Below are positions 3,429 through 47,457 of a stretch of 54,711 nt of DNA, piece after piece. Source of the DNA: Trueperaceae bacterium (GTDB taxonomy: Bacteria; Deinococcota; Deinococci; Deinococcales; Trueperaceae); NCBI GenBank assembly GCA_023954415.1, contig JAMLIB010000013.1, positions 1 through 54,711 of the forward strand. The letters are read 5' to 3'. Numbering within the stretch: position 1 is the stretch's first letter; every line of letters starts with the position of its first letter. Position numbers and translations under genes: made by a program. The notes beneath the pieces were generated by a model. That model worked only from the letters and a program-made list of their open reading frames with translations. It was not told where the DNA came from and searched no databases.

Positions 3429-6400
3429 ATGCCCGGGACGCGCAGCGTAGTCGACGGGAACGAGGCCGCCGCCCTGGTGGCGCACAAGGTCAACGAGGTC
3501 ATCGCCATCTACCCGATCACCCCCGCCTCGCCCATGGGCGAGCTCGCAGACGCCTGGTCGGCGGCCGGCAGGCGCAACCTGTGGGGCCAGGTGCCCCAGG
3601 TCGTGCAGCTCCAGAGCGAGGGCGGCGCGGCCGGCACCGTCCACGGCGCGCTGCAGGCCGGCGCGCTCACGACGACCTTCACGTCGTCGCAAGGCCTGCT
3701 CCTCATGCTGCCGAACATGTTCAAGATCGCGGGCGAGCTGACGCCGGCCGTCATCCACGTGGCCGCGCGCTCCGTCGCCGCGCACGCGCTCTCGATCTTC
3801 GGCGACCACTCCGACGTCATGGCCGCCCGCCCCACCGGCTGGGCCATGCTCTTCGCGACCTCCGTGCAGGAGGCGCACGACCTGGCGCTCATCGCCCAGG
3901 CCGCCACCCTGCGCTCGCGCGTGCCGTTCCTGCACGTCCAGGACGGCTTCCGCACCAGCCACGAGGTGGCGCGGATCCTCACGCTGACGGACGAGGACCT
4001 CAGGGCGTTCCTGCCCGACGAGCTCGTGGCCGCCCACCGGGCGCGCTCCCTCGACCCGGACCGGCCCGTCCTGCGCGGCACGGCCCAGAACCCCGACGTC
4101 TTCTTCCAGTCAAGGGAAGCCGCCAACTCCTACTACGCGGCCGTGCCGGACATCGTGGCGGAGCTCTTCGCCGCGTTCGCCGAGCGCACTGGCCGCGCGT
4201 ACCGCGCGTTCGACTACTGGGGCGCTCCCGACGCCGAGCGGGTCCTCGTGGTCATGGGCTCGGGGGTCGTGACCGCCCGCGAGACCGTCGCCAAGCTCGT
4301 GGCGGCGGGGGAGAAGGTCGGCCTCGTCGCCGTGCGCCTCTACCGTCCGTTCGACTCCGAGGCCTTCGCCGCCGCGCTCCCTCCGAGCACGCGCGGCATC
4401 GTGGTCCTCGACCGCACGAAGGAGCCGGGCGCGGCCGGCGAGCCCCTCTACCAGGACGTCGTCACGGCCCTCGCCGAGCGGTGGCCCGACGCGCTCGCGC
4501 GCCCGCGGGTCCTGAACGGCCGCTACGGCCTCGGCAGCAAGGAGTTCACGCCGCGCATGGCGAAGGCGGCGCTCGACGCCCTGGAGGACGGGAACGCGCC
4601 GCGCTCGTTCACCGTCGGCATCGCCGACGACGTCACGCGCCTCTCGTTGGCGGTCGACCCGCTGTTCGCAACGGAGCGGCCGGAGGTCACGCGCGCCGTG
4701 TTCTACGGCCTCGGCAGCGACGGCACGGTGGGCGCCACCAAGAACAGCGTCAAGATCATCGGCGAGCATACGGACCTGGACGCCCAGGGTTACTTCGTGT
4801 ACGACTCGAAGAAGTCGGGCGCCGTCACGGTCTCGCACCTGCGCTTCGGCCCCGAGCCCGTGGCGAGCCCGTACCTCATCGAGGCTGCCGGCTTCATCGG
4901 CGTCCACTGGTTCGAGCTCATGTACTCGCGCGACGTGCTCGGCCTGGCCGCGCCGGGCGCCACCGTCCTCTTCAACGCGCCCTTCGGGCCGGACGAGCTC
5001 TGGGACCGCCTCCCCGTGGAGGCCCAGCGCCTCGTGCGCGAGCGCGGGCTCGAGCTCTACATGGTCGACGGCGACAAGGTGGCCTTCGACGCCGGCCTCG
5101 GCTCGCGCGTCAACACCGTCATGCAGACCTGCTTCTTCGCCCTGTCGGGCGTGCTCCCGCGGGAGGACGCGGTCGCGGCCATCAAGGCGGCCATCGACCG
5201 CACCTACGGCAAGCGCGGCGGCACGGTCCTCGCGCGCAACCACGCCGCCGTCGACGCGGCGCTCGCGAACCTCCACCCCGTCGCGGTCCCGGCCGAGGGC
5301 GAGAGCCGCTACCGCCGCCTCGCGCTCGTGCCAGACCACGCGCCGGACTTCGTGCAGCGCGTGACGGCCAGGCTCATGGCGGGCGAGGGCGACCTCCTGC
5401 CCGTCTCGGCCTTCCCCGTGGACGGCACGTACCCGACCGACACGGCCAGGTGGGAGAAGCGCTCCATCGCCTCCGAGGTGCCGATCTGGCGCAAGGACAT
5501 CTGCACGCAGTGCAACCTGTGCGCGCTCGCCTGCCCGCACTCGGCCATCCGCGTCAACGCGGTGCCGCGCGCGCTCCTCGACGGGGCCCCCGACGGCTTC
5601 GAGTGGACGCCGTGGACGGGCAAGGACGAGAGCCTGGCCGGCTACGCCTACGTCGTGCAGCTCGCGCCCGACGACTGCACGGGCTGCGGCGTGTGCGTCG
5701 ACGTCTGCCCGGCGCGCGACAGGACCGACCTCAAGCGCAAGGCCATCAACCTCGAGCCGAAGCGCGACCACCTGGAGCGCGAGCGCGCCAACTGGGCGTT
5801 CTTCGAGCGGCTGCCGTACCCGCGCCCGGGCTTCGACGCGCTCGACCCGATCAAGGCCTCGCAGCTCCGCGAGCCCCTCTTCGAGTTCTCCGGCGCCTGC
5901 GCCGGCTGCGGGGAGACGCCCTACCTCAAGCTCCTCAGCCAGCTCTTCGGCGACCACCTCATCGTCGCCAACGCCACCGGCTGCTCCTCGATCTACGGCG
6001 CGAACCTCCCCACCACGCCGTGGGCCAAGGGGGCCGACGGGCGCGGCCCGGCCTGGAACAACTCCCTCTTCGAGGATGCCGCCGAGTTCGGTCTCGGCAT
6101 GCGCCTCGCCGTCGACGCGAAGGCGGAGCAGGCGCTCGACCTGGTGGCGCGGCTCAGGGGCAGGCTCGGCGACGGGCTCGCCGACGCCCTCGCCCGGGGG
6201 GTCGGTGCCCGGGACGACGCGGGGATCGAGGCGCAGCGCGAGCGCGTGGCGGAGCTGCTGGCGCGGCTCGCCGAGCTCGAGCGCCACGGCTCCCTGACGG
6301 AGTCCGAGCTCCGCGACGCCGCGCGCCTGCGCACGGTGGCGGAGACGCTCGTCTACCGCCAGCTCTGGATCGTGGGTGGTGACGGTTGGGCGTACGACAT

Positions 6401-34592: not shown

Positions 34593-36881
34593 ATGAGGGA
34601 AGGCAAGCCGCAGTTCTGGGCCCATTCGCCGGATCCTGATAAGGGCATCCCCCCGCATCTTCTCAGGGACCACCTCCTGGCCGTGGCAAAGCTGGCGAAG
34701 CACTTCGGGAGGTACATTCAAGTCCAAGGCATAGCCATCGTGCTCTTCGTGGAAGGGATCCTCCACGACCTAGGCAAGTACCAGGACGAGTTCCAGCGGG
34801 ATCGTCTTGGGCGCGATCCACATACGGGGGAGGAAGGCCTTCCACGCCGGTCGGGTGTGGATCACTCGAGCTTGGGGGCCGTGGCAGTGTATCCGAAGAT
34901 CCCGCCTGCTCGCGAAGGAAGTTTGAGGTACGCGTTGGCTAGGGTCATCGCGGGCCACCATGCTGGTCTGGTGGATGTGGCCGACTTCCATGGTCGCATG
35001 GAGATCGCCAGTGCGGCGAAGAGTCGACAGGCGGCTCTGAAGCACGCTCGTGAGGACTTCCCAGACTTGCAGCAGCTTGTTCAACCGCTAGACGAGGTCG
35101 CCATCGATCTGTCCGGAAAGAGCTTCGACGTACTCACACGCATGCTGCTCAGCTGTCTGGTCGACGCTGACCGCACCGATACCGAGGCTCATGCTGATCC
35201 AGCGACGCGCTCCGTTCGGACTCGTCAGGTCCAGTCGTTGGCCGTCCTCGACGAGCGCCTAGATGCCAAGATCGCGTCGCTTATGAGCGATGAGACCCTG
35301 GTGAAGCGTCTGAGGCGGGAGATGTATGAACGGGTCGTCGCTGCCGCTCCTTTGGAGCCAGGGTTCTTCCGGCTGACGATGCCGACTGGGGGTGGAAAGA
35401 CATTCGCGTCGCTGAGCTTCGCGCTCAAACACGCTATGCAGCATGGGCTTCGTCGAATCATCTACGGTATCCCGTACACGAGCATCATCGACCAGACGGC
35501 GAAGGTCTTTCGAGGCAGCTTGAACGCGCCTGGTGAGGAGAACGTCCTCGAACATCACTCGGCGCTCGAATCGAAGACCGACGACACCGCCGAACCCCAG
35601 GCGTGGACTTCTCTGCTGTCCGAGACCTGGGATGCGCCGCTGGTTGTCACCACCACGGTCCAGCTCTTCGAGAGTCTGTTCGCCAACAAGACCGGTCGGC
35701 TTCGCAAGCTCCACAACATCACGGGCTCCGTCATTGTCTTGGACGAGGTCCAGACGCTGCCGGCGACGCTCTTGGGACCGATCCTAGACATGCTCAGTGA
35801 GTTGGTGGCGAGATACCGGGTGTCAGTAGTGTTTTGCACCGCTACGCAACCGACGTTCCAGGCCATCGACGGCTTCTCCGCTTCAGGCATCGCTCAAGCG
35901 CGCGACCTCATCCCTGACGTCAAGGGCTACTTCGAGGCGCTACAGCGAGTCGATTACGAGATCGCCGTCGCCGAGCCCACGCCATGGTCGGTAGTAGCTC
36001 GGAAGATGCTAGCTACGTCCAGCGTTCTCACGATCGTGAACCTGCGTCGGCATGCGCGCGAGCTCTACGAGTCGCTTCGGACCGACGACAGCGAGGCCTT
36101 GCACCTCTCGACCTACATGTACCCGGAACACAGGAAGGAAGTGCTGGACCTCATCGCGGACCGGCTGCAGGGGCGCCGGCCGTGCCGTGTCGTTTCCACT
36201 CAGTTGATCGAATGTGGCGTCGACGTGGACTTCCCTGCGGTCTTCCGGGCGGTAGGCCCGCTCGATTCGATGGTGCAGGCGGCCGGGAGATGCAACCGGG
36301 AGGGCAACCTTAAGGACGCCGATGGTAGTCCGGTACGTGGCCGAGTCTGGGTGTTCAAACCAGAGGGTCGGTACGCCCCAGAGGGCGACTACATGGTGAA
36401 GGTCGCTGCTGCAGAGGAGTTGCTCGATGTCGATTGCGATCTCAGCGATCCGAGCGTGTTCGAACAGTACTTCAGGCGCGTCTTCAACGACATAGACACG
36501 CCGAACCTCGACCTTCAAAGAGCTAGAGAGGAGCAACAGTTCGCTTCGGTGGCTCGGGACTTCAAGTTCATCGATGCCGACACGGTGCCGGTCGTGATCA
36601 CCTGTCGCTTCGTGAATGGCGAGCGCGTGGCTCTGAGTGAACCTCAGCGCTTGCTGGAGATCCTCACGTCCGCCGACACCAAACCGGAACTCGAAGTCTG
36701 GCGCCGGTTGCAGGCCTACTCGGTGGGTGTCTACAGAAGTAGCTTGCCAAGGCTGGCCGGCCTGATGCGCCAAGTCGTTGTAGCCGGCAACGTAGAGCTG
36801 GAACTCTATGAATGGACCGGCGTTTACGATGACCGTGTAGGCCTAATAGAGGAGGAGGATGCCGCTAGGTATGTGGCGTAG
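34593..36881 (+). CDS. cas3: CRISPR-associated helicase/nuclease Cas3 (type I-C)
   Basis: A 762-residue fusion of an HD nuclease and an SF2 helicase, recruited by target-bound Cascade to unwind and degrade DNA. HD residues: His27, His58-Asp59 (GILHDLGKY), His91 (VDHSSLG) and His122-His123 (IAGHHAG). Helicase: Walker A MPTGGGKTFASL near 265, motif II VLDEVQTLPA near 383 (DEVQ, not DEVH), motif III FCTATQPTFQ, and motifs V/VI VVSTQLIECGVDVDFPAVFR and QAAGRCNREG near 545-570. Length is usual for I-C. Base composition is lower in GC than the metabolic genes around. It is separated from the rest of the cas operon by a 305-base gap that holds a crRNA-like element. Confidence 0.97.
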   Translation: MREGKPQFWAHSPDPDKGIPPHLLRDHLLAVAKLAKHFGRYIQVQGIAIVLFVEGILHDLGKYQDEFQRDRLGRDPHTGEEGLPRRSGVDHSSLGAVAVYPKIPPAREGSLRYALARVIAGHHAGLVDVADFHGRMEIASAAKSRQAALKHAREDFPDLQQLVQPLDEVAIDLSGKSFDVLTRMLLSCLVDADRTDTEAHADPATRSVRTRQVQSLAVLDERLDAKIASLMSDETLVKRLRREMYERVVAAAPLEPGFFRLTMPTGGGKTFASLSFALKHAMQHGLRRIIYGIPYTSIIDQTAKVFRGSLNAPGEENVLEHHSALESKTDDTAEPQAWTSLLSETWDAPLVVTTTVQLFESLFANKTGRLRKLHNITGSVIVLDEVQTLPATLLGPILDMLSELVARYRVSVVFCTATQPTFQAIDGFSASGIAQARDLIPDVKGYFEALQRVDYEIAVAEPTPWSVVARKMLATSSVLTIVNLRRHARELYESLRTDDSEALHLSTYMYPEHRKEVLDLIADRLQGRRPCRVVSTQLIECGVDVDFPAVFRAVGPLDSMVQAAGRCNREGNLKDADGSPVRGRVWVFKPEGRYAPEGDYMVKVAAAEELLDVDCDLSDPSVFEQYFRRVFNDIDTPNLDLQRAREEQQFASVARDFKFIDADTVPVVITCRFVNGERVALSEPQRLLEILTSADTKPELEVWRRLQAYSVGVYRSSLPRLAGLMRQVVVAGNVELELYEWTGVYDDRVGLIEEEDAARYVA

Positions 36882-36889
36882 GGAATGTT

Positions 36890-36970
36890 GGGCCACCCAG
36901 GCTTCCCCGGGTGGCCCGATGCGCATGTCCGACATGTCAACCGTTTCAATCCACGGCGCCAGGGCACCGG
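36890..36970 (-). ncRNA. crRNA-like RNA between cas3 and cas5c (putative CreR/CreTA-like guide)
   Basis: Read on the minus strand from the predicted start at about 36970: a 6-bp hairpin CGGTGC-CCTG-GCGCCG (36969-36954), the tail TGGATTGAAAC (36953-36943), a guide GGTTGACATGTCGGACATGC... of 25 nt (36942-36918), and a 9-bp hairpin GGGCCACCC / GGGTGGCCC (36917-36890). The tail differs from the array's repeat tail (AGGATTGAAAC) only in its first base and is the size of the 11-nt Cas5c 5' handle. So the RNA would be bound by Cas5c and loaded into Cascade as a single short crRNA. The upstream extended -10 lies at 36986-36977. Function is inferred; the structure is seen directly. Confidence 0.7.
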
Positions 36971-36976
36971 ACGTGA

Positions 36977-36986
36977 ATCGTAGCAC
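36977..36986 (-). promoter_or_regulatory. Leftward extended -10 promoter of the crRNA-like RNA
   Basis: Minus-strand GTGCTACGAT contains TG-n-TACGAT, an extended -10. The start site predicted 6-8 bases downstream (about 36970) coincides with the first base of the pseudo-repeat hairpin. With 17-base spacing the -35 region (37000-37005, GCGACT) is weak and lies inside the guide-matching target. Confidence 0.5.
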
Positions 36987-37002
36987 TATCGAGGCGCGAA
37001 GT

Positions 37003-37024
37003 CGCGTCCTACAGAGCAACCGAA
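37003..37024 (-). promoter_or_regulatory. Protospacer-like target of the crRNA-like RNA, with TTC PAM
   Basis: On the minus strand TTC (37024-37022) is followed by GGTTGCTCTGTAGGACGCG (37021-37003). Compared with the guide, positions 1-5, 9-11, 13-16 and 19 are identical (13 of 19). Mismatches at 6, 12 and 18 are at bases flipped out in type I Cascade duplexes; 7, 8 and 17 are true mismatches. TTC is the canonical type I-C PAM. The site lies between the two divergent extended -10 promoters. Confidence 0.6.
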
Positions 37025-37034
37025 CGACTCATTT

Positions 37035-37044
37035 GTGCTACGGT
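37035..37044 (+). promoter_or_regulatory. Rightward extended -10 promoter of the cas5c operon
   Basis: GTGCTACGGT contains TG-n-TACGGT, an extended -10, and is an inverted copy (9 of 10 bases) of the leftward promoter at 36977-36986. Its -35 position (37016-37021) falls on the PAM-proximal part of the guide target. The predicted leader to the cas5c ATG is about 135 bases and includes a small hairpin GGTTC-GAA-GAACC (37094-37106). Confidence 0.45.
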
Positions 37045-37186
37045 GAAGCCGGGCACGCTTTGAGTCGAGCGCCCAGCTCCGGCTCAGAAGGGAGGTTCGA
37101 AGAACCGCGCGGAAAGGGAGCGCAGAAGAGGGCCGGGCTTGATCTGGCTGGCCCTCAATTCAGTTCCGGTTAGAGGAGCCTGGGAT

Positions 37187-37894
37187 ATGAAGGAGAAAGA
37201 GTTGGTCGAGGTCAAGGTCTGGGGTCCCTACGCACTGTTCACGCGGCCAGAATCCAAAGTGGAGCGTGTGACATACGACGTCATGACGCCTAGTGCGGCT
37301 CGCGGCGTGTTGGAAGGCATCTTGTGGCGGCCGGCCTTCTCTTGGCAGGTTAGAGAGATAGCCGTCCTCCGGCCCATCAAGCGGCTCTCCATGCTCCGTA
37401 ACGAGGTCAATTCGGTGGCATCTGTGAGAAGCGCGCGAGCGTGGCAGGCTGCGGGCGGCGGGTTTTACGCCGAGGGGGACCGGGCCCAGCGGCACTCCCT
37501 GTTCCTGAAGGATGTCTCCTACATCATCAAAGCGGATGTCGTCCTCAAGCCTCATGCCGCCGACCCCGTAGCCAAGTACGTCGAGATGTTCAATAGGCGT
37601 GTCCGGAAGGGGCAGTGCCATAACCAGCCGTACCTGGGCACCCGAGAATGCAGTGCTTTCTTCGAGCCCCCTCACGGGACGGAGGCGCCGATCGAACTTA
37701 ACCTCGACTTGGGCCGGATGCTGTTCGATCTGGAGATTCGGCCTGCGAAGAAGGGTCGCCTCAAGTACGTTTCACACGACGAGAACGGGGTTGGTCGGGT
37801 TGTGAGCGGCACCGCCGTACCTCGGTACTTTCACGGAGCGCTTCGGGGCGGCGTGCTGACGGTTCCACCTGAACTTTACGCAGGGAGCAGCTGA
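37187..37894 (+). CDS. cas5c: CRISPR-associated protein Cas5c (Cas5d), crRNA-processing nuclease
   Basis: A 235-residue RAMP protein. In type I-C, which lacks Cas6, this subunit cuts the repeat RNA and keeps the 5' handle at the foot of Cascade. It starts ELVEVKVWGPYALFTRPESK, has YDVMTPSAARGVLEGILWRP (family signature, residues about 28-47), the Lys/Tyr/His-rich RNA face and a Gly-rich C terminus FHGALRGGVLTVPP. The ATG at 37187 has AGAGGAG eight bases upstream; an in-frame ATG at 37139 lacks a ribosome site. Its TGA overlaps the cas8c ATG by one base. Confidence 0.96.
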   Translation: MKEKELVEVKVWGPYALFTRPESKVERVTYDVMTPSAARGVLEGILWRPAFSWQVREIAVLRPIKRLSMLRNEVNSVASVRSARAWQAAGGGFYAEGDRAQRHSLFLKDVSYIIKADVVLKPHAADPVAKYVEMFNRRVRKGQCHNQPYLGTRECSAFFEPPHGTEAPIELNLDLGRMLFDLEIRPAKKGRLKYVSHDENGVGRVVSGTAVPRYFHGALRGGVLTVPPELYAGSS

Positions 37895-39702
37895 TGCTAC
37901 TGCCCGCCTTGATCGCGTATGAGCAGAGAAAGGTTCGCGAGGACGAGAGTTTTGAGGTGCAACTGGGCGTTGTTCCCTCAGGGTACCAGCGCCAACCTGT
38001 TAAAGGGTTCGTCGAGCTGGATGCGCAGGGTGAGTTCGTCCGTTTTCGGCCCACTGCGGGCAGCGACCCGAAGAAGGACCGAGGGCGTGTCTACATAGTT
38101 CCTCACATCATGCGGTCGTCGGCGATAAGGCCTAAGCTCCTTGCCGACAACGCGGAGTACGTGTTCGGCATCGGAAGGAAGACTGACGAGCACGATCCGA
38201 AAGTGGCGCAGCGCCATGCTGCTTTCATCGAAGCAGTGCAAGAGTGTTTCGAGGCCACAGGCAACGCGAGTGTGGGCGCGGTGTTGCGGTACCTCAAGGA
38301 TGCACGATCCGCGCCGGCGTTCGGGGATTCGTTCGATCCGACCTTGAACTACAGCTTCATGGTCGGCGAGCGAAGGCCGTTCGAGGACGAAGACGTCCAG
38401 GCTTACTGGGCGTCCAAGACCATCGGCTCAGGGGAGGTCACCGACGACGGTGACATGGCCGAGTCGATGATCTCCGGCGACGTCGGGCAGCTGATGTCTG
38501 CGGAGCCGGTCAAGATCAAGGGTATCCCGGGTGGTCAAGTGTCGGGTATGAACCTCGTGTCGGCGAACGCGCCGGCGTTCTTGTCATACGGCCTAGGCTC
38601 TTCGGCGCAAGCACCGATCTTGGCCGTCGAGGCCGAGACGTACGCCAACGGCCTGAACCGCCTTCTGAGCGACGACTCCACGCGCTACTCTATCGGTCCA
38701 GTCGTATATGTGTTCTGGACGGGGCATGGGGATGTGCCGCCCGTGGCAGATGCCCTTGCCGGCGGTCCTGCGGTCGATCTCTTCGGGCTGGACGACGACA
38801 CCTCTCCACGTTCCGGCCGACCGGAACAGATTCGCACAAGGCTGAAGAGCATCTGGACTGGGGAAGGCCACTCGCTGGTCCTGGACTCAGAGTTCTTCGC
38901 CGTCGCCCTCTCGGCTAGCGGCTCACGAGTCGTCATCCGAAGCTTCGTGCAGTCGACGGTTCAAGAACTGATGGGCCGGCTGGCATACTTCTTCGCTGCT
39001 CAGATGCTGGTGCAGTGGGACGGTTCGGCGCCCAAGCCGCAAGGCATCTACTCGCTGGCCGCGAGCCTAGTGCGGAACTTCAAGAAGGAGGCCTCCCCCC
39101 AAGGGATCGAGAGCCTGGTCGCTTTCGCCCTATCGGGAGCAAGGCTACCCTATGACTTCCTAGCACGTTTGGCGGGCCGTAACCGTGCAGAGCGGCGTGT
39201 GACGTACCCGCGTGCCGTCCTTACGAAGATGACGCTCACAAGTCTTGGAGTGATTCCCATGGGAGAACTAGAACAGGTTGACGCATCGAACCCGGACGTA
39301 GGTTACCAACTCGGTCGGCTTCTTGCCGTGCTGGATGGGATTCAGCGGTCTGCCTTGGGCAAAGGCGTCAACGCTACTCTGTCAGATCGTTTCTATGGCT
39401 CCATGAGTACGGCGCCATTAAGCGTCTTTGGACGAATCATGCAGGGCGCTCAGCCGCATCTTGCTCGGCTAAGGAAGGAGCGTCCGGGGGCCTACAATCG
39501 AGTGACCGCTACCCTCGAGGAAGTTATGGGTCGTATCGACGCAGGCTCCGTGCCGCGAGTGCTGACGCTAGAACAGCAAGCGCTTTTCGCGCTCGGCTAT
39601 TACCACCAGAGGGCAGAGGTCGGACGCAACATTGCGGCGCACAAGCTCGCGAAGCTCGGCGAGGGAACCGAGAACGCACTTGAGGAGGAAGATGATGGCT
39701 AG
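37894..39702 (+). CDS. cas8c: CRISPR-associated protein Cas8c (Csd1), Cascade large subunit
   Basis: A 602-residue Csd1-family protein, the large subunit that reads the PAM and starts R-loop formation. Features: LLPALIAYEQRKVREDESFE at the N terminus, GFVELDAQGEFVRFRP, the long middle domain with LTYGLG-like SFLSYGLGSSAQAPI (near 228), and VVYVFWTGHG. The C-terminal ~150 residues are helical (VGYQLGRLLAVLDGIQRSAL, RFYGSMSTAPLSVF, LEQQALFALGYYHQRAEV) and correspond to the small subunit Cas11c. It overlaps cas5c by one base and the cas7c start by eight to eleven bases. Length matches the family. Confidence 0.95.
   Translation: MLLPALIAYEQRKVREDESFEVQLGVVPSGYQRQPVKGFVELDAQGEFVRFRPTAGSDPKKDRGRVYIVPHIMRSSAIRPKLLADNAEYVFGIGRKTDEHDPKVAQRHAAFIEAVQECFEATGNASVGAVLRYLKDARSAPAFGDSFDPTLNYSFMVGERRPFEDEDVQAYWASKTIGSGEVTDDGDMAESMISGDVGQLMSAEPVKIKGIPGGQVSGMNLVSANAPAFLSYGLGSSAQAPILAVEAETYANGLNRLLSDDSTRYSIGPVVYVFWTGHGDVPPVADALAGGPAVDLFGLDDDTSPRSGRPEQIRTRLKSIWTGEGHSLVLDSEFFAVALSASGSRVVIRSFVQSTVQELMGRLAYFFAAQMLVQWDGSAPKPQGIYSLAASLVRNFKKEASPQGIESLVAFALSGARLPYDFLARLAGRNRAERRVTYPRAVLTKMTLTSLGVIPMGELEQVDASNPDVGYQLGRLLAVLDGIQRSALGKGVNATLSDRFYGSMSTAPLSVFGRIMQGAQPHLARLRKERPGAYNRVTATLEEVMGRIDAGSVPRVLTLEQQALFALGYYHQRAEVGRNIAAHKLAKLGEGTENALEEEDDG
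39259..39702 (+). CDS. cas11c: Probable Cas11c small subunit from an internal start in cas8c
   Basis: In other type I-C systems the small Cascade subunit is translated from an in-frame internal start in cas8c. Here an in-frame ATG at 39259 (residue 456, MGELEQVDASNPDVGYQ) is preceded by GGAG with eight-base spacing. The product would be 147 residues, all-helical, with the same C terminus as Cas8c. Size and position agree with known Cas11c; the start is inferred from the sequence alone. Confidence 0.6.
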   Translation: MGELEQVDASNPDVGYQLGRLLAVLDGIQRSALGKGVNATLSDRFYGSMSTAPLSVFGRIMQGAQPHLARLRKERPGAYNRVTATLEEVMGRIDAGSVPRVLTLEQQALFALGYYHQRAEVGRNIAAHKLAKLGEGTENALEEEDDG

Positions 39703-40585
39703 AGTCGATGACGTTTCGGTGCGGCACGATTTTGTCCTGTTGTTCGATGTTGAGAACGGTAACCCGAACGGGGATCCGGACGCCGGCAACTTACCGCGCA
39801 TAGATCCCGAGACGGGTCGAGGCCTCGTGACGGACGTGGCGCTCAAGCGGAAAGTGCGGAACTACGTTGACGCTTTGCGCGGCAACGAAGGACGCTACAA
39901 AATCTACGTTCAGCAAGGAGCAATCCTCAACGATCAGAACAAGCGTGCTTATACCGATCTGAACATCAAGCCTCAATCCAAGATCGAGTCGCCCGGCGTT
40001 CGTAAGTGGATGTGCGAAAACTTCTTCGACGTTCGGACCTTCGGTGCCGTCATGAGCACGGATGTCAATGCGGGTCAGGTCCGTGGCCCCGTCCAGCTCA
40101 CCATGGGACGATCTGTCGACAGCATCTTGGGCCTGGACATCTCCATAACGCGGGTTGCCTTGACCAAGGCTAGCGATAAGTCGACGAAAAGCGATACTGG
40201 TGAGGATCAAGCGACTCACGGAACGATGGGTCGCAAGGCCTTCATCCCGTACGGCCTATATGTTGCCAACGGCTTCATAATCCCTGCGTTCGCAGAGGAT
40301 ACGGGTTTCAGCGATGAGGACCTGGCACTCCTCTGGCAGGCTCTCGTGAGCATGTGGGACCTGGATCGCTCGGCTTCAAGAGGCCTTACGTCCTGCAGGG
40401 GGCTCTACGTGTTCACACATTCGTCGAAACTCGGCGAGGCGCCTGCCCACAAGCTCTTGGAGCGCATCAAGCCTAGCAGGCGACCCGACGTTCAAGTGGC
40501 GAGGAGCTTTGCTGATTATGAGGTCTCGGTCGAGAGGGACGGACTCCCAACTGGTGTGGAACTCCATGTGATAACGGAGGGGTAA
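39695..40585 (+). CDS. cas7c: CRISPR-associated protein Cas7c (Csd2), Cascade backbone
   Basis: A 296-residue RAMP-fold backbone subunit that polymerises along the crRNA. It shows VRHDFVLLFDVENGNPNGDPD (residues 6-26, family signature quoted in part), RGLVTDVALKRKVRNYVD, FFDVRTFGAVMSTDVNAGQV, GPVQLTMGRSVDSILGLDI and GTMGRKAFIPYGLYV (Csd2 landmarks). GAGGAGG gives six-base spacing to the ATG at 39695; an ATG at 39692 is possible. It overlaps the end of cas8c, so translation is coupled. Confidence 0.96.
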   Translation: MARVDDVSVRHDFVLLFDVENGNPNGDPDAGNLPRIDPETGRGLVTDVALKRKVRNYVDALRGNEGRYKIYVQQGAILNDQNKRAYTDLNIKPQSKIESPGVRKWMCENFFDVRTFGAVMSTDVNAGQVRGPVQLTMGRSVDSILGLDISITRVALTKASDKSTKSDTGEDQATHGTMGRKAFIPYGLYVANGFIIPAFAEDTGFSDEDLALLWQALVSMWDLDRSASRGLTSCRGLYVFTHSSKLGEAPAHKLLERIKPSRRPDVQVARSFADYEVSVERDGLPTGVELHVITEG

Positions 40586-40588
40586 TCG

Positions 40589-41200
40589 ATGGATGACCCG
40601 ATCCCGATCTCTGCACTGCAGCACTTCCTTTACTGTCCTCGTCAGTGCGCTCTCATTCACCTCGAGCAGTCGTACTCGGAGAACATCTACACGCTGCGTG
40701 GCAACCGGGTGCACGAGAAGGTTCACGAGTCGGGTTCCGAAGCCCTTGCTGGCGTCAGAGTAGAGCGCGCTTTGCCGCTCTACTCTGACGCGCTCGGTTT
40801 GACTGGGGTAGCAGACGTTGTCGAGTTCCTAGAGGATGGCACGCCGTATCCAGTTGAGTACAAGGCCGGGGCGCGCAAGGCACGGGTCGCTGACGAGGTT
40901 CAGCTCTGTGCTCAGGCCATGTGTCTTGAAGAGATGCTAAGGATCCCTGTGCCTGAAGGCAGCATCTACTACGATCGCTCGCGCCGGCGGCGCATCGTCG
41001 CGTTCACCGATGAACTCCGCACTAGAGTCGTTTCCACGAGCCAGGAAGTCAGGAAGCTACTCGACTCAGACGCGGTGCCGCCACCTCTGGCCGACGAGCG
41101 GTGTGAGTCGTGCTCGCTCTCCGAGACCTGCATGCCAACCGAGATCGTCGATTGGAGGAATCGGTTCACGGATCCCTTCAAGGTAGTCGATCCGTCATGA
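40589..41200 (+). CDS. cas4: CRISPR-associated exonuclease Cas4
   Basis: A 203-residue RecB-like nuclease that trims prespacers and selects PAM during adaptation. N-terminal ISALQHFLYCPRQCALIH with the first cluster Cys, then ALGLTGVADVVEF (motif with Asp), PYPVEYKAGARKARVADEVQ (Glu-x-Lys and Gln of the RecB core, residues about 88-107) and CESCSLSETCMP near 170 with three more Cys for a 4Fe-4S cluster. Starts three bases after cas7c; its TGA overlaps the cas1 ATG by four bases. Confidence 0.96.
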   Translation: MDDPIPISALQHFLYCPRQCALIHLEQSYSENIYTLRGNRVHEKVHESGSEALAGVRVERALPLYSDALGLTGVADVVEFLEDGTPYPVEYKAGARKARVADEVQLCAQAMCLEEMLRIPVPEGSIYYDRSRRRRIVAFTDELRTRVVSTSQEVRKLLDSDAVPPPLADERCESCSLSETCMPTEIVDWRNRFTDPFKVVDPS

Positions 41201-42228
41201 CGCAATTGCTGAACACCATGTTCGTGCAGACCCAGGGCAGCTACCTTCGACTCGATCACGACACGGTCAAGATCGAGGTGGGTGGTGAGCATCGGCTTCA
41301 GGTGCCATTGCATCATTTGAGCGGGTTAGTTGTGTTTGGCAACGTGTTACTGAGCCCGTTCTTGATTCATAGGTTCGCTGCAGACGGTCGATCGATCGTT
41401 TGGCTCACGGAGAGTGGTCGGTTCAAGGGGCGCCTCACGCCACCGACCACGGGTAATGTCCTGCTCCGTAGGGCCCAGCATGCTGCCCTTGACGACGTGC
41501 AGACATCACTTTCGATCGCCAGGAACACCGTGGCAGGCAAGATCCAGAACGCGCGCACGACGCTACTTCGAAGCGCGAGGGACCTGAAGGGTACTGCAGA
41601 GGAGGGGGGCTTGCGTGGTGCCGCTGAGGTCCATGCGGACGCAATTCGACGCTTGTCGGGCGCTAGATACACCGATGAACTTCTTGGGCTCGAGGGCGAC
41701 GCTGCTCGAGCATACTTCGCGGTGTTCCACTCGATGATCAGGAATTCAGATGAGACTTTCGAGTTCCGGGGAAGGAGCCGGCGCCCGCCTCTCGATGCGA
41801 CCAATGCTCTTCTCTCGTTCCTGTACGGCGTGCTCCGTAACGACTGCGTCTCCGCGCTTGAAAGCGTGGGGTTAGACCCGCAGATCGGCTTCCTACACGC
41901 TTTGCGGCCCGGGCGGCCGGCGCTCGCGCTGGACCTGATGGAGGAGCTACGAGCACCACTCGTAGACCGGCTGGTCCTCACGCTTATAAACCTGAGACAG
42001 GTCGGCCCAGGAGGCTTCAAACAACGTCCAGGTGGTGCAGTGGAGCTTGACGAGGCCACGCGAAAGAAGGTGATCGTTGCCTACCAGGAGCGCAAACGGG
42101 TGGAAGTGAGTCATCCAGTCCTGAAGAAGGCGATTCCAATGGGACTAGTTCCGCATATTCAGGCACGTCTGCTGGCACGGCATTTGCGTGGTGACATCCC
42201 GGAGTATCCTCCCTACCTATTCAGGTAG
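41197..42228 (+). CDS. cas1: CRISPR-associated integrase Cas1
   Basis: A 343-residue type I-C Cas1, which with Cas2 integrates new spacers at the leader end. N-terminal beta domain (LLNTMFVQTQGSYLRLDHDT, LHHLSGLVVFGNVLLSP, LTESGRFKGRL), C-terminal helical catalytic domain with Glu in ELLGLEGDAARAYF (near 167), His in IGFLHALRPGRPALALDLME (near 233) and Asp in the same segment: the Glu-His-Asp triad is intact. ATG at 41197 overlaps the cas4 stop. Length is usual, so adaptation should be functional, in line with the long array. Confidence 0.97.
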   Translation: MTQLLNTMFVQTQGSYLRLDHDTVKIEVGGEHRLQVPLHHLSGLVVFGNVLLSPFLIHRFAADGRSIVWLTESGRFKGRLTPPTTGNVLLRRAQHAALDDVQTSLSIARNTVAGKIQNARTTLLRSARDLKGTAEEGGLRGAAEVHADAIRRLSGARYTDELLGLEGDAARAYFAVFHSMIRNSDETFEFRGRSRRPPLDATNALLSFLYGVLRNDCVSALESVGLDPQIGFLHALRPGRPALALDLMEELRAPLVDRLVLTLINLRQVGPGGFKQRPGGAVELDEATRKKVIVAYQERKRVEVSHPVLKKAIPMGLVPHIQARLLARHLRGDIPEYPPYLFR

Positions 42229-42236
42229 TGTTCCCA

Positions 42237-42527
42237 ATGAACGTTCTTGTTGCTTACGACGTCAATACTGAATCGAAGGCGGGACGGCGACGGCTCGCTA
42301 AGGTGGCTCAGACTTGCAAAGCCTTCGGTCAGCGGGTTCAGTTCTCAGTGTTTGAGTGTCGAGTCGACGAATCGCTCTACGAGGACCTCATAGCGAAGTT
42401 GTCGAAGATCATCAATCCAGCCAGCGATAGCCTGCGTGTTTACAAGCTTCGAGGCGATCGCGAAGACTACCTCGAGCATTTCGGGTTGGATCGTTACGTC
42501 GACTTCGACGACCCGTTGGTAGTTTAG
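42237..42527 (+). CDS. cas2: CRISPR-associated protein Cas2
   Basis: A 96-residue ferredoxin-fold protein, the dimeric centre of the Cas1-Cas2 integrase. It begins MNVLVAYDVNTESKAGRRRL with the conserved Asp at the end of strand 1, then GQRVQFSVFECRVDESLYEDL and the C-terminal strand DYLEHFGLDRYVDFDDPLVV. The ATG at 42237 matches known I-C Cas2 starts; a GTG at 42228 overlapping the cas1 stop would add MFP. The array leader follows directly. Confidence 0.96.
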   Translation: MNVLVAYDVNTESKAGRRRLAKVAQTCKAFGQRVQFSVFECRVDESLYEDLIAKLSKIINPASDSLRVYKLRGDREDYLEHFGLDRYVDFDDPLVV

Positions 42528-42723: not shown

Positions 42724-45700
42724 GTTGCAGCCCCTCTTCGGAGGGGCTGAGGATTGAAACACCGTAACGAGCCCGGGCACGTCGGGTGCTTGCACGTTGC
42801 AGCCCCTCTTCGGAGGGGCTGAGGATTGAAACACGCTCGCAATGCGCGGCACCGACCAGCACGGGCGTTGCAGCCCCTCTTCGGAGGGGCTGAGGATTGA
42901 AAAACATCAAGGACTTATCGGCTGCAAAGCCCAAAACCGCATTATTTCTCGAGCGGCTGAGGATTGAAACGGCAACGACGTGCGGTCCTACACGCTCGCC
43001 AAGGCGTTGCAGCCCCTCTTCGGAGGGGCTGAGGATTGAAACGGTCTGCTCCTCGAGCCCCTTCGGCACGTAACCACGTTGCAGCCCCTCTTCGGAGGGG
43101 CTGAGGATTGAAACTGGGCCGCAGAGGCCGCTGCTAGGGCCGCCTGGGGTTGCAGCCCCTCTTCGGAGGGGCTGAGGATTGAAACTGAGGGGCCCAGTGG
43201 CCGCCGTAAAGGTGCCTCCAGTTGCAGCCCCTCTTCGGAGGGGCTGAGGATTGAAACAGCGAGGTGCTAGTGCCGGGCGAGGACGCGGGCTGTTGCAGCC
43301 CCTCTTCGGAGGGGCTGAGGATTGAAACAGAAGAAGGCCTGACCGTGGCCGGGGTTCCCCAGGTGTTGCAGCCCCTCTTCGGAGGGGCTGAGGATTGAAA
43401 CAGATACAAGCAGCGCGGGCCCCCGGTTCATCGCAGTTGCAGCCCCTCTTCGGAGGGGCTGAGGATTGAAACGGCGGCAGACTTGCGAACCTGCGGCCCT
43501 CATCGGTCGTTGCAGCCCCTCTTCGGAGGGGCTGAGGATTGAAACATCGAGTTCATCAAGGCCATCTTCCGCGGCGACTGGTTGCAGCCCCTCTTCGGAG
43601 GGGCTGAGGATTGAAACACCCTCAGTCCTCCGTCGGCGTTCACGGACCTTGAGTTGCAGCCCCTCTTCGGAGGGGCTGAGGATTGAAACACGAGCACAAC
43701 AAGGTGCGTCGCAAGGACGACGGCAGTTGCAGCCCCTCTTCGGAGGGGCTGAGGATTGAAACAGGCACGCGGCGGCCAACTTGTCGAGGTTCAGGCGGGT
43801 TGCAGCCCCTCTTCGGAGGGGCTGAGGATTGAAACCTTCCCGACGACGGCCCGCGGCACGTTCACGCCGGTTGCAGCCCCTCTTCGGAGGGGCTGAGGAT
43901 TGAAACGGGTTTGTGACTTGGTGCACTAGTGTGGCGCTTGCGTTGCAGCCCCTCTTCGGAGGGGCTGAGGATTGAAACCTGGAGGTCACCGCCCTAGACC
44001 CGCGCGACGCGCGTTGCAGCCCCTCTTCGGAGGGGCTGAGGATTGAAACACCTACGCTACCTGTCGATGGGACACCTAGACTTCGTTGCAGCCCCTCTTC
44101 GGAGGGGCTGAGGATTGAAACTTGGAGAGTGTGGGACACCCGGAGTTGGCAGAACAGGTTGCAGCCCCTCTTCGGAGGGGCTGAGGATTGAAACTGCGGC
44201 ATGCGCCTGAAGCGCGGGTGGCCGATGAGTTGCAGCCCCTCTTCGGAGGGGCTGAGGATTGAAACGATCTTGCCCTCGATGCGCGCATACTGCGCGGTCG
44301 CGTTGCAGCCCCTCTTCGGAGGGGCTGAGGATTGAAACCCAGCGAGGCTGAAAGGGCACCGAGGCTGAAAGGGCGTTGCAGCCCCTCTTCGGAGGGGCTG
44401 AGGATTGAAACTTACTGTTGCTGCCCGTGTGGGGCGTGATCTTCCTGTTGCAGCCCCTCTTCGGAGGGGCTGAGGATTGAAACACCGGCCGCATCGTCGA
44501 GCTGGAGCGCGGCAGCGTTGCAGCCCCTCTTCGGAGGGGCTGAGGATTGAAACATGGTCCATAGCGAGCTTGACGACCTCGACCTCGATCGTTGCAGCCC
44601 CTCTTCGGAGGGGCTGAGGATTGAAACGCCGGCCCCGATCGACGGCGCAGCCGGCAACCAGGCGTTGCAGCCCCTCTTCGGAGGGGCTGAGGATTGAAAC
44701 CTCTCTCTGCAGCTCGACGCGGAGCTGCTTGTCCTTGTTGCAGCCCCTCTTCGGAGGGGCTGAGGATTGAAACATCACTTGCCGGGCTACCCTTTCCCGG
44801 CTACCCTGGTTGCAGCCCCTCTTCGGAGGGGCTGAGGATTGAAACACCACTTACCTGCCTTCTGCCTACACGGCCAGGTCGTTGCAGCCCCTCTTCGGAG
44901 GGGCTGAGGATTGAAACCGCGACTGTTGCAGCCACTCAAGGGCGACAGGGGGAGTTGCAGCCCCTCTTCGGAGGGGCTGAGGATTGAAACGTCGGCGGCG
45001 TGGTGCTTGGGTTGGGTCTGTCGGCACGTTGCAGCCCCTCTTCGGAGGGGCTGAGGATTGAAACATCGCGGAGTGGAGGGCGACCTGATGCCTGACGACT
45101 GTTGCAGCCCCTCTTCGGAGGGGCTGAGGATTGAAACGACCAGGCGGCTAGGGCCGTGACCGCGTACGAGGACGTTGCAGCCCCTCTTCGGAGGGGCTGA
45201 GGATTGAAACGACCAGGCACCCGCCCACGACAACTCGGCGTGCGGCGCGTTGCAGCCCCTCTTCGGAGGGGCTGAGGATTGAAACAACGGTTACCGCGCG
45301 AACATCCTGGGTGACCGCACCGTTGCAGCCCCTCTTCGGAGGGGCTGAGGATTGAAACACGGCCAGGTCAGGATAGGGGCACGCCGCGGAGTAGTTGCAG
45401 CCCCTCTTCGGAGGGGCTGAGGATTGAAACACAACGCCTCAGCTACCCGCCGGCCAACGGCGTACAGTTGCAGCCCCTCTTCGGAGGGGCTGAGGATTGA
45501 AACTCGAACTCACGCGTCAGGCGATTCCTGCGCAGTGAGTTGCAGCCCCTCTTCGGAGGGGCTGAGGATTGAAACGACTGGCCTGGACGTGCGCGTGAGG
45601 TGCTGAGGGTTGCAGCCCCTCTTCGGAGGGGCTGAGGATTGAAACCTATAAGTCAGGCCGATAGTAGCCTCTCATCCACGTTGCAGCCCCTCTTCGGAGG

Positions 45701-47457
45701 GGCTGAGGATTGAAACGGCACGGAGTGCGATGTCGAGTTCGGCGCGCGTCTGTTGCAGCCCCTCTTCGGAGGGGCTGAGGATTGAAACGAGCAGGCCGCC
45801 ACCGACGAGGCGCGCACCGCTGGTTGCAGCCCCTCTTCGGAGGGGCTGAGGATTGAAACACCTCCTCTCTCAGGGGTTCTGCGGGCTGCCGAGGGTTGCA
45901 GCCCCTCTTCGGAGGGGCTGAGGATTGAAACGTGGAGTACGCGGCGGCGTTCCATGGCCGGCGGCACCGTTGCAGCCCCTCTTCGGAGGGGCTGAGGATT
46001 GAAACATCGACCAGTTCACGAAGCTCCTCAAGAACCAAGGTGTTGCAGCCCCTCTTCGGAGGGGCTGAGGATTGAAACGAGACGGCCAAGGACAGCAACT
46101 TCGAGGCGCCCGGTTGCAGCCCCTCTTCGGAGGGGCTGAGGATTGAAACTGGTCAATCAAGAGCGACTGCTGGGTGCTGGCGGGTTGCAGCCCCTCTTCG
46201 GAGGGGCTGAGGATTGAAACATCGACGCCGCGCAGGGCGGCAGCGGTAAGGAGCGTTGCAGCCCCTCTTCGGAGGGGCTGAGGATTGAAACAACACGGTC
46301 GTGTGCGGCCGACGATTCGGCAAGACGTTGCAGCCCCTCTTCGGAGGGGCTGAGGATTGAAACCACCTGCTCGCTTGAAGCCGCTGACGGAATCCCGAGT
46401 TGCAGCCCCTCTTCGGAGGGGCTGAGGATTGAAACACGGGCCTTGGTGACGCGCACGACGACATCATCGAGTTGCAGCCCCTCTTCGGAGGGGCTGAGGA
46501 TTGAAACGTCGGCATGCTCCTCGGCACGTGGATGGGAGAGCGCGTTGCAGCCCCTCTTCGGAGGGGCTGAGGATTGAAACCTCGCGTGGCTCGCCGCCGC
46601 CGAGAGCGTCCTAACGCGTTGCAGCCCCTCTTCGGAGGGGCTGAGGATTGAAACGCGCTGCGCGTCAGTTGCTCGTGCGCGGCCTTGAGGGTTGCAGCCC
46701 CTCTTCGGAGGGGCTGAGGATTGAAACTCGAACACCCTGTCTGGGGCGCGACCGATGGCGTACGTGTTGCAGCCCCTCTTCGGAGGGGCTGAGGATTGAA
46801 ACCCGTGGCTCGGCGCGAGCGTGATGGCGTCAGCGAGTTGCAGCCCCTCTTCGGAGGGGCTGAGGATTGAAACCTGGGGATCCTCGGGGCCGGCGTGATC
46901 GGCCTCGGCCGTTGCAGCCCCTCTTCGGAGGGGCTGAGGATTGAAACGGCAAGGAGGGCAGCCGCCTCCTGCCCCTCCTCAGCGTTGCAGCCCCTCTTCG
47001 GAGGGGCTGAGGATTGAAACACGAGGCGCGCCTCGCGCATGAAGATGCGCTCGTTGTTGCAGCCCCTCTTCGGAGGGGCTGAGGATTGAAACCTTTGGTT
47101 GCCGTGATACTAGCCTCTCATGTCGTGTTGCAGCCCCCCTTCGGAGGGGCTGAGGATTGAAACGTCTCCCCGGCCAGGACCTCCACGATATCGATGGTGT
47201 TGCAGCCCCTATTCGGAAGGTTTGAGGATTGAAACAAGCCCGGTGGCGGCTTCCGGGTACTTGATGTCGGGCGTTGTAGCCCCCCCTTCGGAGAGGCTGA
47301 GGATTGAAACAGGGAGATCGGCGACCAGGAGATGGGCGACCGGTTGTTCCAGCCCCCCTTTTCGAAGGGGCCGAGAATAGAAACGCCGTAGCCGCGCCTT
47401 GCCAGACCCGGGAGAACATGACGAGTCCTTCTTCTGCAGGGGTTTGAGAGTTGAAAT
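42724..47457 (+). CRISPR. Type I-C CRISPR array, about 66 repeats and 65 spacers
   Basis: A 37-bp repeat begins GTTGCAGCCCC and ends GAGGATTGAAAC; its centre is an 8-bp stem AGCCCCTC / GAGGGGCT closed by a TTCG loop. I count about 66 units, first at 42724-42760 and last, strongly decayed, at about 47421-47457; spacers are mostly 34-38 bp. Units 1, 2 and 5-61 look intact. Unit 3 (42867-42903) ends in A instead of C. Unit 4 (about 42934-42970) has lost its 5' half. Units 62-66 (from 47127) decay progressively, marking the leader-distal end. Spacers are GC-rich. The array is downstream of cas2 in the same orientation. Confidence 0.98.

Follow-up and report, generated by a model that had tools for sequence, protein, structure and literature searches.

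CreR (Cas-regulating RNA), shown for CRISPR subtypes I-B, I-E and V-A, is a crRNA-like RNA that derives from a degenerate repeat, is encoded in the cas locus and is complementary, to a limited extent and beside a PAM, to a cas promoter; its release by competing crRNAs or anti-CRISPRs has been reported (PMC13131331, PMC12737573). For CreA, mutation has established a need for positions 1-5 and 7-11 next to a TTC PAM, positions 6 and 12 being dispensable; in haloarchaeal CreA (Haloarcula), any change at 1-5 or 7-11 costs ~10^4-fold, and in a one-repeat form a terminator replaces the second repeat (PMC8501985). The Racr phage RNA anti-CRISPRs include RacrIC1, a mimic of a solitary I-C repeat (PMC10651486). 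Self-regulation of this kind is already known (I-B, I-E, V-A), and I-C is absent among the subtypes named as experimentally shown in the literature we found. A 2023 computational survey by Shmakov and colleagues reportedly described standalone type I repeats whose spacers match cas promoters in part, and I-C units may already be tabulated there.

Here we analysed a 54,711-nt stretch of DNA from a Trueperaceae bacterium of the phylum Deinococcota (the window, meaning the whole of this stretch) together with type I-C loci from other genomes. Judging from its sequence, the window probably encodes an I-C autorepressor of the CreR type that acts on the Cascade operon, an RNA-guided unit by which the system would most likely restrain production of its own CRISPR proteins.

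A solitary repeat, guide and hairpin between cas3 and cas5c

The window contains a complete type I-C system of cas genes and array, complete Cascade included (Table 1). In its 305-nt cas3-cas5c gap, a preliminary description had placed a pseudo-repeat, a 25-nt guide and a terminal hairpin on the minus strand, and we confirmed these coordinates.

Table 1 Coordinates of the type I-C locus and of the gap features in the window
Feature	Position	Strand	Details
cas3 (I-C helicase-nuclease)	34593..36881	+	TIGR01587, TIGR01596; upstream of gap
Terminal hairpin GGGCCACCCGGGGAAGCCTGGGTGGCCC	36890..36917	-	occupies second-repeat position
Guide GGTTGACATGTCGGACATGCGCATC	36918..36942	-	25 nt; read from sequence
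Degenerate I-C repeat	36943..36969	-	6-bp hairpin and 11-nt handle; single copy
Possible extended -10 TGCTACGAT, guide-RNA promoter	36977..36985	-	read from sequence; inferred
Target	37003..37021	-	paired with guide positions 1-5, 9-11, 13-16, 19
PAM TTC	37022..37024	-	read 37024-37022
Possible extended -10 TGCTACGGT, cas5c operon promoter	37036..37044	+	read from sequence; inferred
cas5c-cas8c-cas7-cas4-cas1c-cas2	37187..42527	+	TIGR01876, TIGR01863, TIGR02589, TIGR00372, TIGR03640, TIGR01573
I-C CRISPR array	42724..47235	+	62 repeats of 37 nt; spacers mostly 34-36 nt

The stem of the solitary repeat (CGGTGC-CCTG-GCGCCG, 36969-36954, minus strand) has 6 bp, one of them G-U, and folds at -9.0 kcal/mol. 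Its handle TGGATTGAAAC (36953-36943) differs by one base from AGGATTGAAAC, the end of the array repeat GTTGCAGCCCCTCTTCGGAGGGGCTGAGGATTGAAAC. Handle and adjacent hairpin are, as in CreR, derived from a repeat and cognate to the local CRISPR system. Within the array itself, a degenerate repeat at 42904-42970 retains only its 3' part (CGGCTGAGGATTGAAAC) intact.

The terminal hairpin is strong (12 bp, -29.3 kcal/mol, z -4.9) and likely forms the 3' end of the RNA; a terminator scan of the gap found no T-run terminator. Two Deinococcota relatives (G102 and G050) both have a similar hairpin 26-31 nt past the handle. We rejected an ordinary CRISPR array, as there is one repeat only and viral contigs held no exact match to the first 20 nt of the guide.

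A limited, PAM-flanked match to the same gap

Aligned with 37021-37003, guide positions 1-19 match at 13 of 19, including all of 1-5, beside the TTC PAM, just as the preliminary description had stated. The mismatches are at 6, 7, 8, 12, 17 and 18. That description had recognized 6, 12 and 18 as the flipped-out positions, which holds, and had omitted 7 and 8, which lie in the seed, and 17; these three are true mismatches. As in CreR, the complementarity is limited, flanked by a PAM and next to cas genes.

A lone repeat-like stretch with a coincidental partial match could produce the same picture, and the ungapped match alone leaves some room for it: 11 of 3,000 dinucleotide shuffles of the gap matched as well or better with an NTC PAM. 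We also used a flip-out-aware score, in which flipped positions are ignored and 15 positions counted. The window target scored 12/15. Among 1,477 TTC sites in the window this target alone reached 12, the 61 native array spacers scored at most 8 against the gap, and 5 of 12,000 window 17-mers attained 12. The paired pattern TTCGGTTGNNNTGTNGGAC occurs a single time in the 3.2-Mb genome, at this target. We judge the window match by itself to be good, not overwhelming; the relatives decide.

Unrelated guides fit their own targets across type I-C loci

We gathered I-C loci from ~690 genomes by Cas5c and Cas5d-model searches and compared the DNA around cas5, counting 105 loci with a readable cas3 end at a gap cut-off of 150 nt. 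Where the cas3-cas5 gap measured 150 nt or more, 13 of 22 loci held a solitary repeat with a fitting PAM-flanked target nearby; among loci with a smaller gap, 0 of 83 did. This count is biased, because gaps under 150 nt leave little room for a unit. One additional fitting unit, beyond the 13 of 22, lies on a truncated contig (L139). Scanning the entire 2-7 kb around each locus revealed almost no units outside gaps.

When the repeat-tailed gap units were scored (n=17), 14 reached at least 11/15, compared with 3/272 for swapped guides. The summed score of guides with their own targets was 206, against a mean of 137 (sd 5.9, maximum 173) in 200,000 guide-swap permutations. For 10 loci fetched after earlier ones had suggested this statistic, own pairs summed to 114 and swapped pairs to 82 (sd 4.7). 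Mean pairwise guide identity was 27%; the guides are therefore unrelated, each fitting its own site. Guide-target covariation across related I-C loci, a check proposed in the preliminary description, was positive: unrelated guides match their own PAM-flanked site at the same locus position. This fit across loci supports the proposal made there that the window unit may be an I-C autoregulator. With own-fitting guides confined to split loci (13/22 versus 0/83) and the observed sum never attained in 200,000 permutations, chance is refuted for the family of gap units, and for the window unit coincidence has a near-negligible probability.

In both Deinococcota relatives the cas3-cas5 gap carries the unit on its minus strand: G102 with guide ACTGGGTAGGAAGAAAC, target ACTGGTAGTGAAGAAAC and a TTC PAM, and G050 with an 11-nt perfect seed and a GTC PAM. 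Another 11 fitting units occupy the same locus position in other phyla. Units occur in at least six phyla, namely Deinococcota, the phylum of G262, the separate small phyla of G200, G342 and G345, and Pseudomonadota; the phyla of G200, G345, G342, G239 and G272 hold too few genomes for a wider survey.

No close relative of the window's exact locus was found among the surveyed genomes, and a Cas5c scan of genome contigs returned three remote loci, none with a gap unit. In the nearest cultured Cas5c relatives (plasmids of Deinococcus aetherius and D. radiophilus), cas3 and cas5c are adjacent, with no unit. The gaps of Streptomyces californicus and Treponema saccharophilum held no convincing unit. 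A fitting target was absent beside the repeat-like tails of L157 and L181, L147 had a weak target only, the tail of L129 had none, and five other large gaps lacked a repeat tail. On D. radiophilus pRadio2 (L183 2538-3605), which has no guide unit, a WYL-domain gene directly precedes cas3; perhaps it provides protein-based regulation in place of a guide unit.

The pairing profile mirrors Cascade base flipping

Across 15 elements, positions 1-5 were matched in 14-15, 7-11 in 11-15 and 13-16 in 11-12, high values that are partly an artefact of selection by score. Position 6 was matched in 3 and position 12 in 4, which is background, as is everything from 18 on; this drop at 6 and 12 is no selection artefact, because both positions were excluded from the score. 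Genome sequence alone, in more than 12 guide-target pairs of unrelated sequence, thus recovers the pattern of Cascade base flipping. We rejected plain local duplication in decay, which would not lose 6 and 12 while sparing their neighbours.

The set obeys the CreA pairing rule; the window pair (1-5, 9-11, 13-16) does not. The G102 element, mismatched at 6-9, is similar to the window. Mismatches 7 and 8 count against the CreR reading of the window unit, because such changes would abolish CreA function in Haloarcula (PMC8501985). Together with weak promoters and a degenerate repeat stem, they would suit a decaying mini-array remnant, that is, a formerly working guide unit with a damaged seed that is now functionless here. 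The handle and the TTC PAM are nevertheless intact, the terminal hairpin is strong, and positions 1-5, 9-11 and 13-16 are still paired; a drifting relic would not hold its mismatches mainly at 6-8 and 12. We consider such a remnant highly unlikely. If the window unit is a CreR-type autorepressor, the mismatches at 7 and 8, with pairing resuming at 9-11 and 13-16, may make it a milder brake, or I-C Cascade may be more tolerant.

Promoter geometry and a proposed mechanism

The window, G102 and G050 share one geometry, with a minus-strand unit and a target that starts 75-95 nt upstream of the guide start. In G102 and G050, the PAM lies beside or inside the -35 of cas5-facing promoters (TTGACT-17-TATCTT and TTGACT-17-TAGATT). 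A target within the cas promoter is clear in several relatives, these two among them; the window shows possible extended -10 boxes only. A sigma-70 consensus scan of the window gap found no promoter. The possible extended -10 box assigned to the cas5c operon is supported by its position, at which relatives have strong promoters. Outside Deinococcota, units mostly occupy the plus strand. The majority of their targets overlap or border the -35, -10 or start site of a promoter directed at cas5, and transcription from it often runs through the unit itself; L144 and L149 showed no clear promoter. On Tistrella mobilis pTM3, the order is target, TTGACG box, repeat, guide, hairpin and cas5c, which makes this species a named host where the unit can be tested.

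From the anatomy, PAM, match, cross-locus guide-target fit and locus position that we observed, we propose the following mechanism. A crRNA-like RNA would be transcribed from repeat and guide, with a possible start near 36970, at the repeat hairpin. Cas5c would cut below this hairpin, leaving UGGAUUGAAAC, and the ~64-nt product would comprise the 11-nt handle, the 25-nt guide and the terminal hairpin. Cascade loaded with this guide RNA would bind 37003-37024, its R-loop reaching toward 36990. It would sit between the presumed starts of the guide RNA and of the cas5c operon, and between back-to-back extended -10 boxes, TGCTACGAT pointing toward the guide unit and TGCTACGGT toward cas5c. It could hinder transcription of the cas5c operon and, probably, of the guide RNA. 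Since pairing is confined to about the first 16 positions, Cascade would occupy the site and obstruct RNA polymerase, yet would not recruit Cas3 for cleavage.

Cascade would in this way cap its own synthesis (cas5c-cas8c-cas7) plus that of cas4-cas1-cas2, the six-gene operon from cas5c to cas2 being the presumed target of repression; cas3, upstream of the gap, would lie outside the feedback loop. Array crRNAs would compete for Cascade, and the proposed brake would therefore lift when crRNA is plentiful or when Cascade is inhibited, as by anti-CRISPRs.

A CreA-type antitoxin would work from the same site: at the target promoter the guide would repress a toxin (an RNA or small protein), with cas genes affected, if at all, as a by-product. 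Small ORFs separate the target promoter from cas5 in several relatives (among them L122, L123, L135 and L156), and in L084 a second promoter, ~525 nt further on, is nearer to cas5 than the targeted one. In the window, by contrast, the stretch from the putative operon start near 37051 to cas5c at 37187 contains no credible ORF or mini-ORF; on the minus strand, transcription would start right at the repeat hairpin, which leaves no room for creT. The ORF search thus found no CreTA toxin in the window; a toxic RNA without an ORF would be possible. We regard an antitoxin as unlikely here and retain the CreR-type autorepressor.

Several gaps carry further genes. In L122 and L123, the first ORFs after the targeted promoter encode acidic products of 58 and 70 aa with no Pfam match, and appear leaderless, with an ATG no more than a few bases from the expected transcription start. 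An HNH endonuclease (PF01844) in L135 and an HTH_3 protein (PF01381) in L156 lie between guide unit and cas5 and are possible toxin-like cargo or extra regulators. L084, read as its reverse complement, has two strong promoters in one gap (~4309-4338 and ~4834-4863); its guide is directed at the first, not at the one closest to cas5. The guide unit and a 75-aa ORF are driven from that first promoter, and the unit may be CreTA-like rather than CreR-like. Directly before cas5 in L133, L144 and L149 are ~75-aa proteins that look alike by eye (PG-V-V ... D-T-N ... HPAL) and possibly represent an unnamed I-C accessory protein; one of them gave no Pfam match.

Comparison with known systems

In aggregate, these results would extend RNA-guided CRISPR self-regulation to subtype I-C, and they provide a simple rule for finding such units: inspect split cas3-cas5 gaps. 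We lean towards a broader view, in which I-C autorepression is widespread and positionally fixed. Where a gap separates cas3 from cas5c, a guide unit would usually be found there, uncoupling the Cascade and adaptation genes from cas3 and placing these genes under feedback; the divergent form would also act on the guide RNA itself.

Racr RNAs share a solitary I-C repeat with the window unit; they are found on phages and plasmids away from cas genes, and need no guide matching a host cas promoter. The window unit lies within a complete cas locus, and we rejected a Racr identity for it. CreA of CreTA (haloarchaeal I-B, Acinetobacter I-F) resembles the I-C set in its pairing rule, TTC PAM and one-repeat form. 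The window unit differs from CreA in showing no toxin ORF, in a target that faces the cas5c operon and in breaking the rule at 7 and 8. CreR is the closest counterpart, sharing with the window unit a crRNA-like design built on a degenerate repeat in the cas locus, and a limited, PAM-flanked match to DNA beside cas genes, which for CreR is a cas promoter (PMC13131331, PMC12737573). The putative I-C form departs from it in subtype, in having Cas5c in place of Cas6 as the processor, in its single repeat followed by a terminal hairpin, and in its place in the cas3-cas5 gap, which is followed by Cascade and adaptation genes only.
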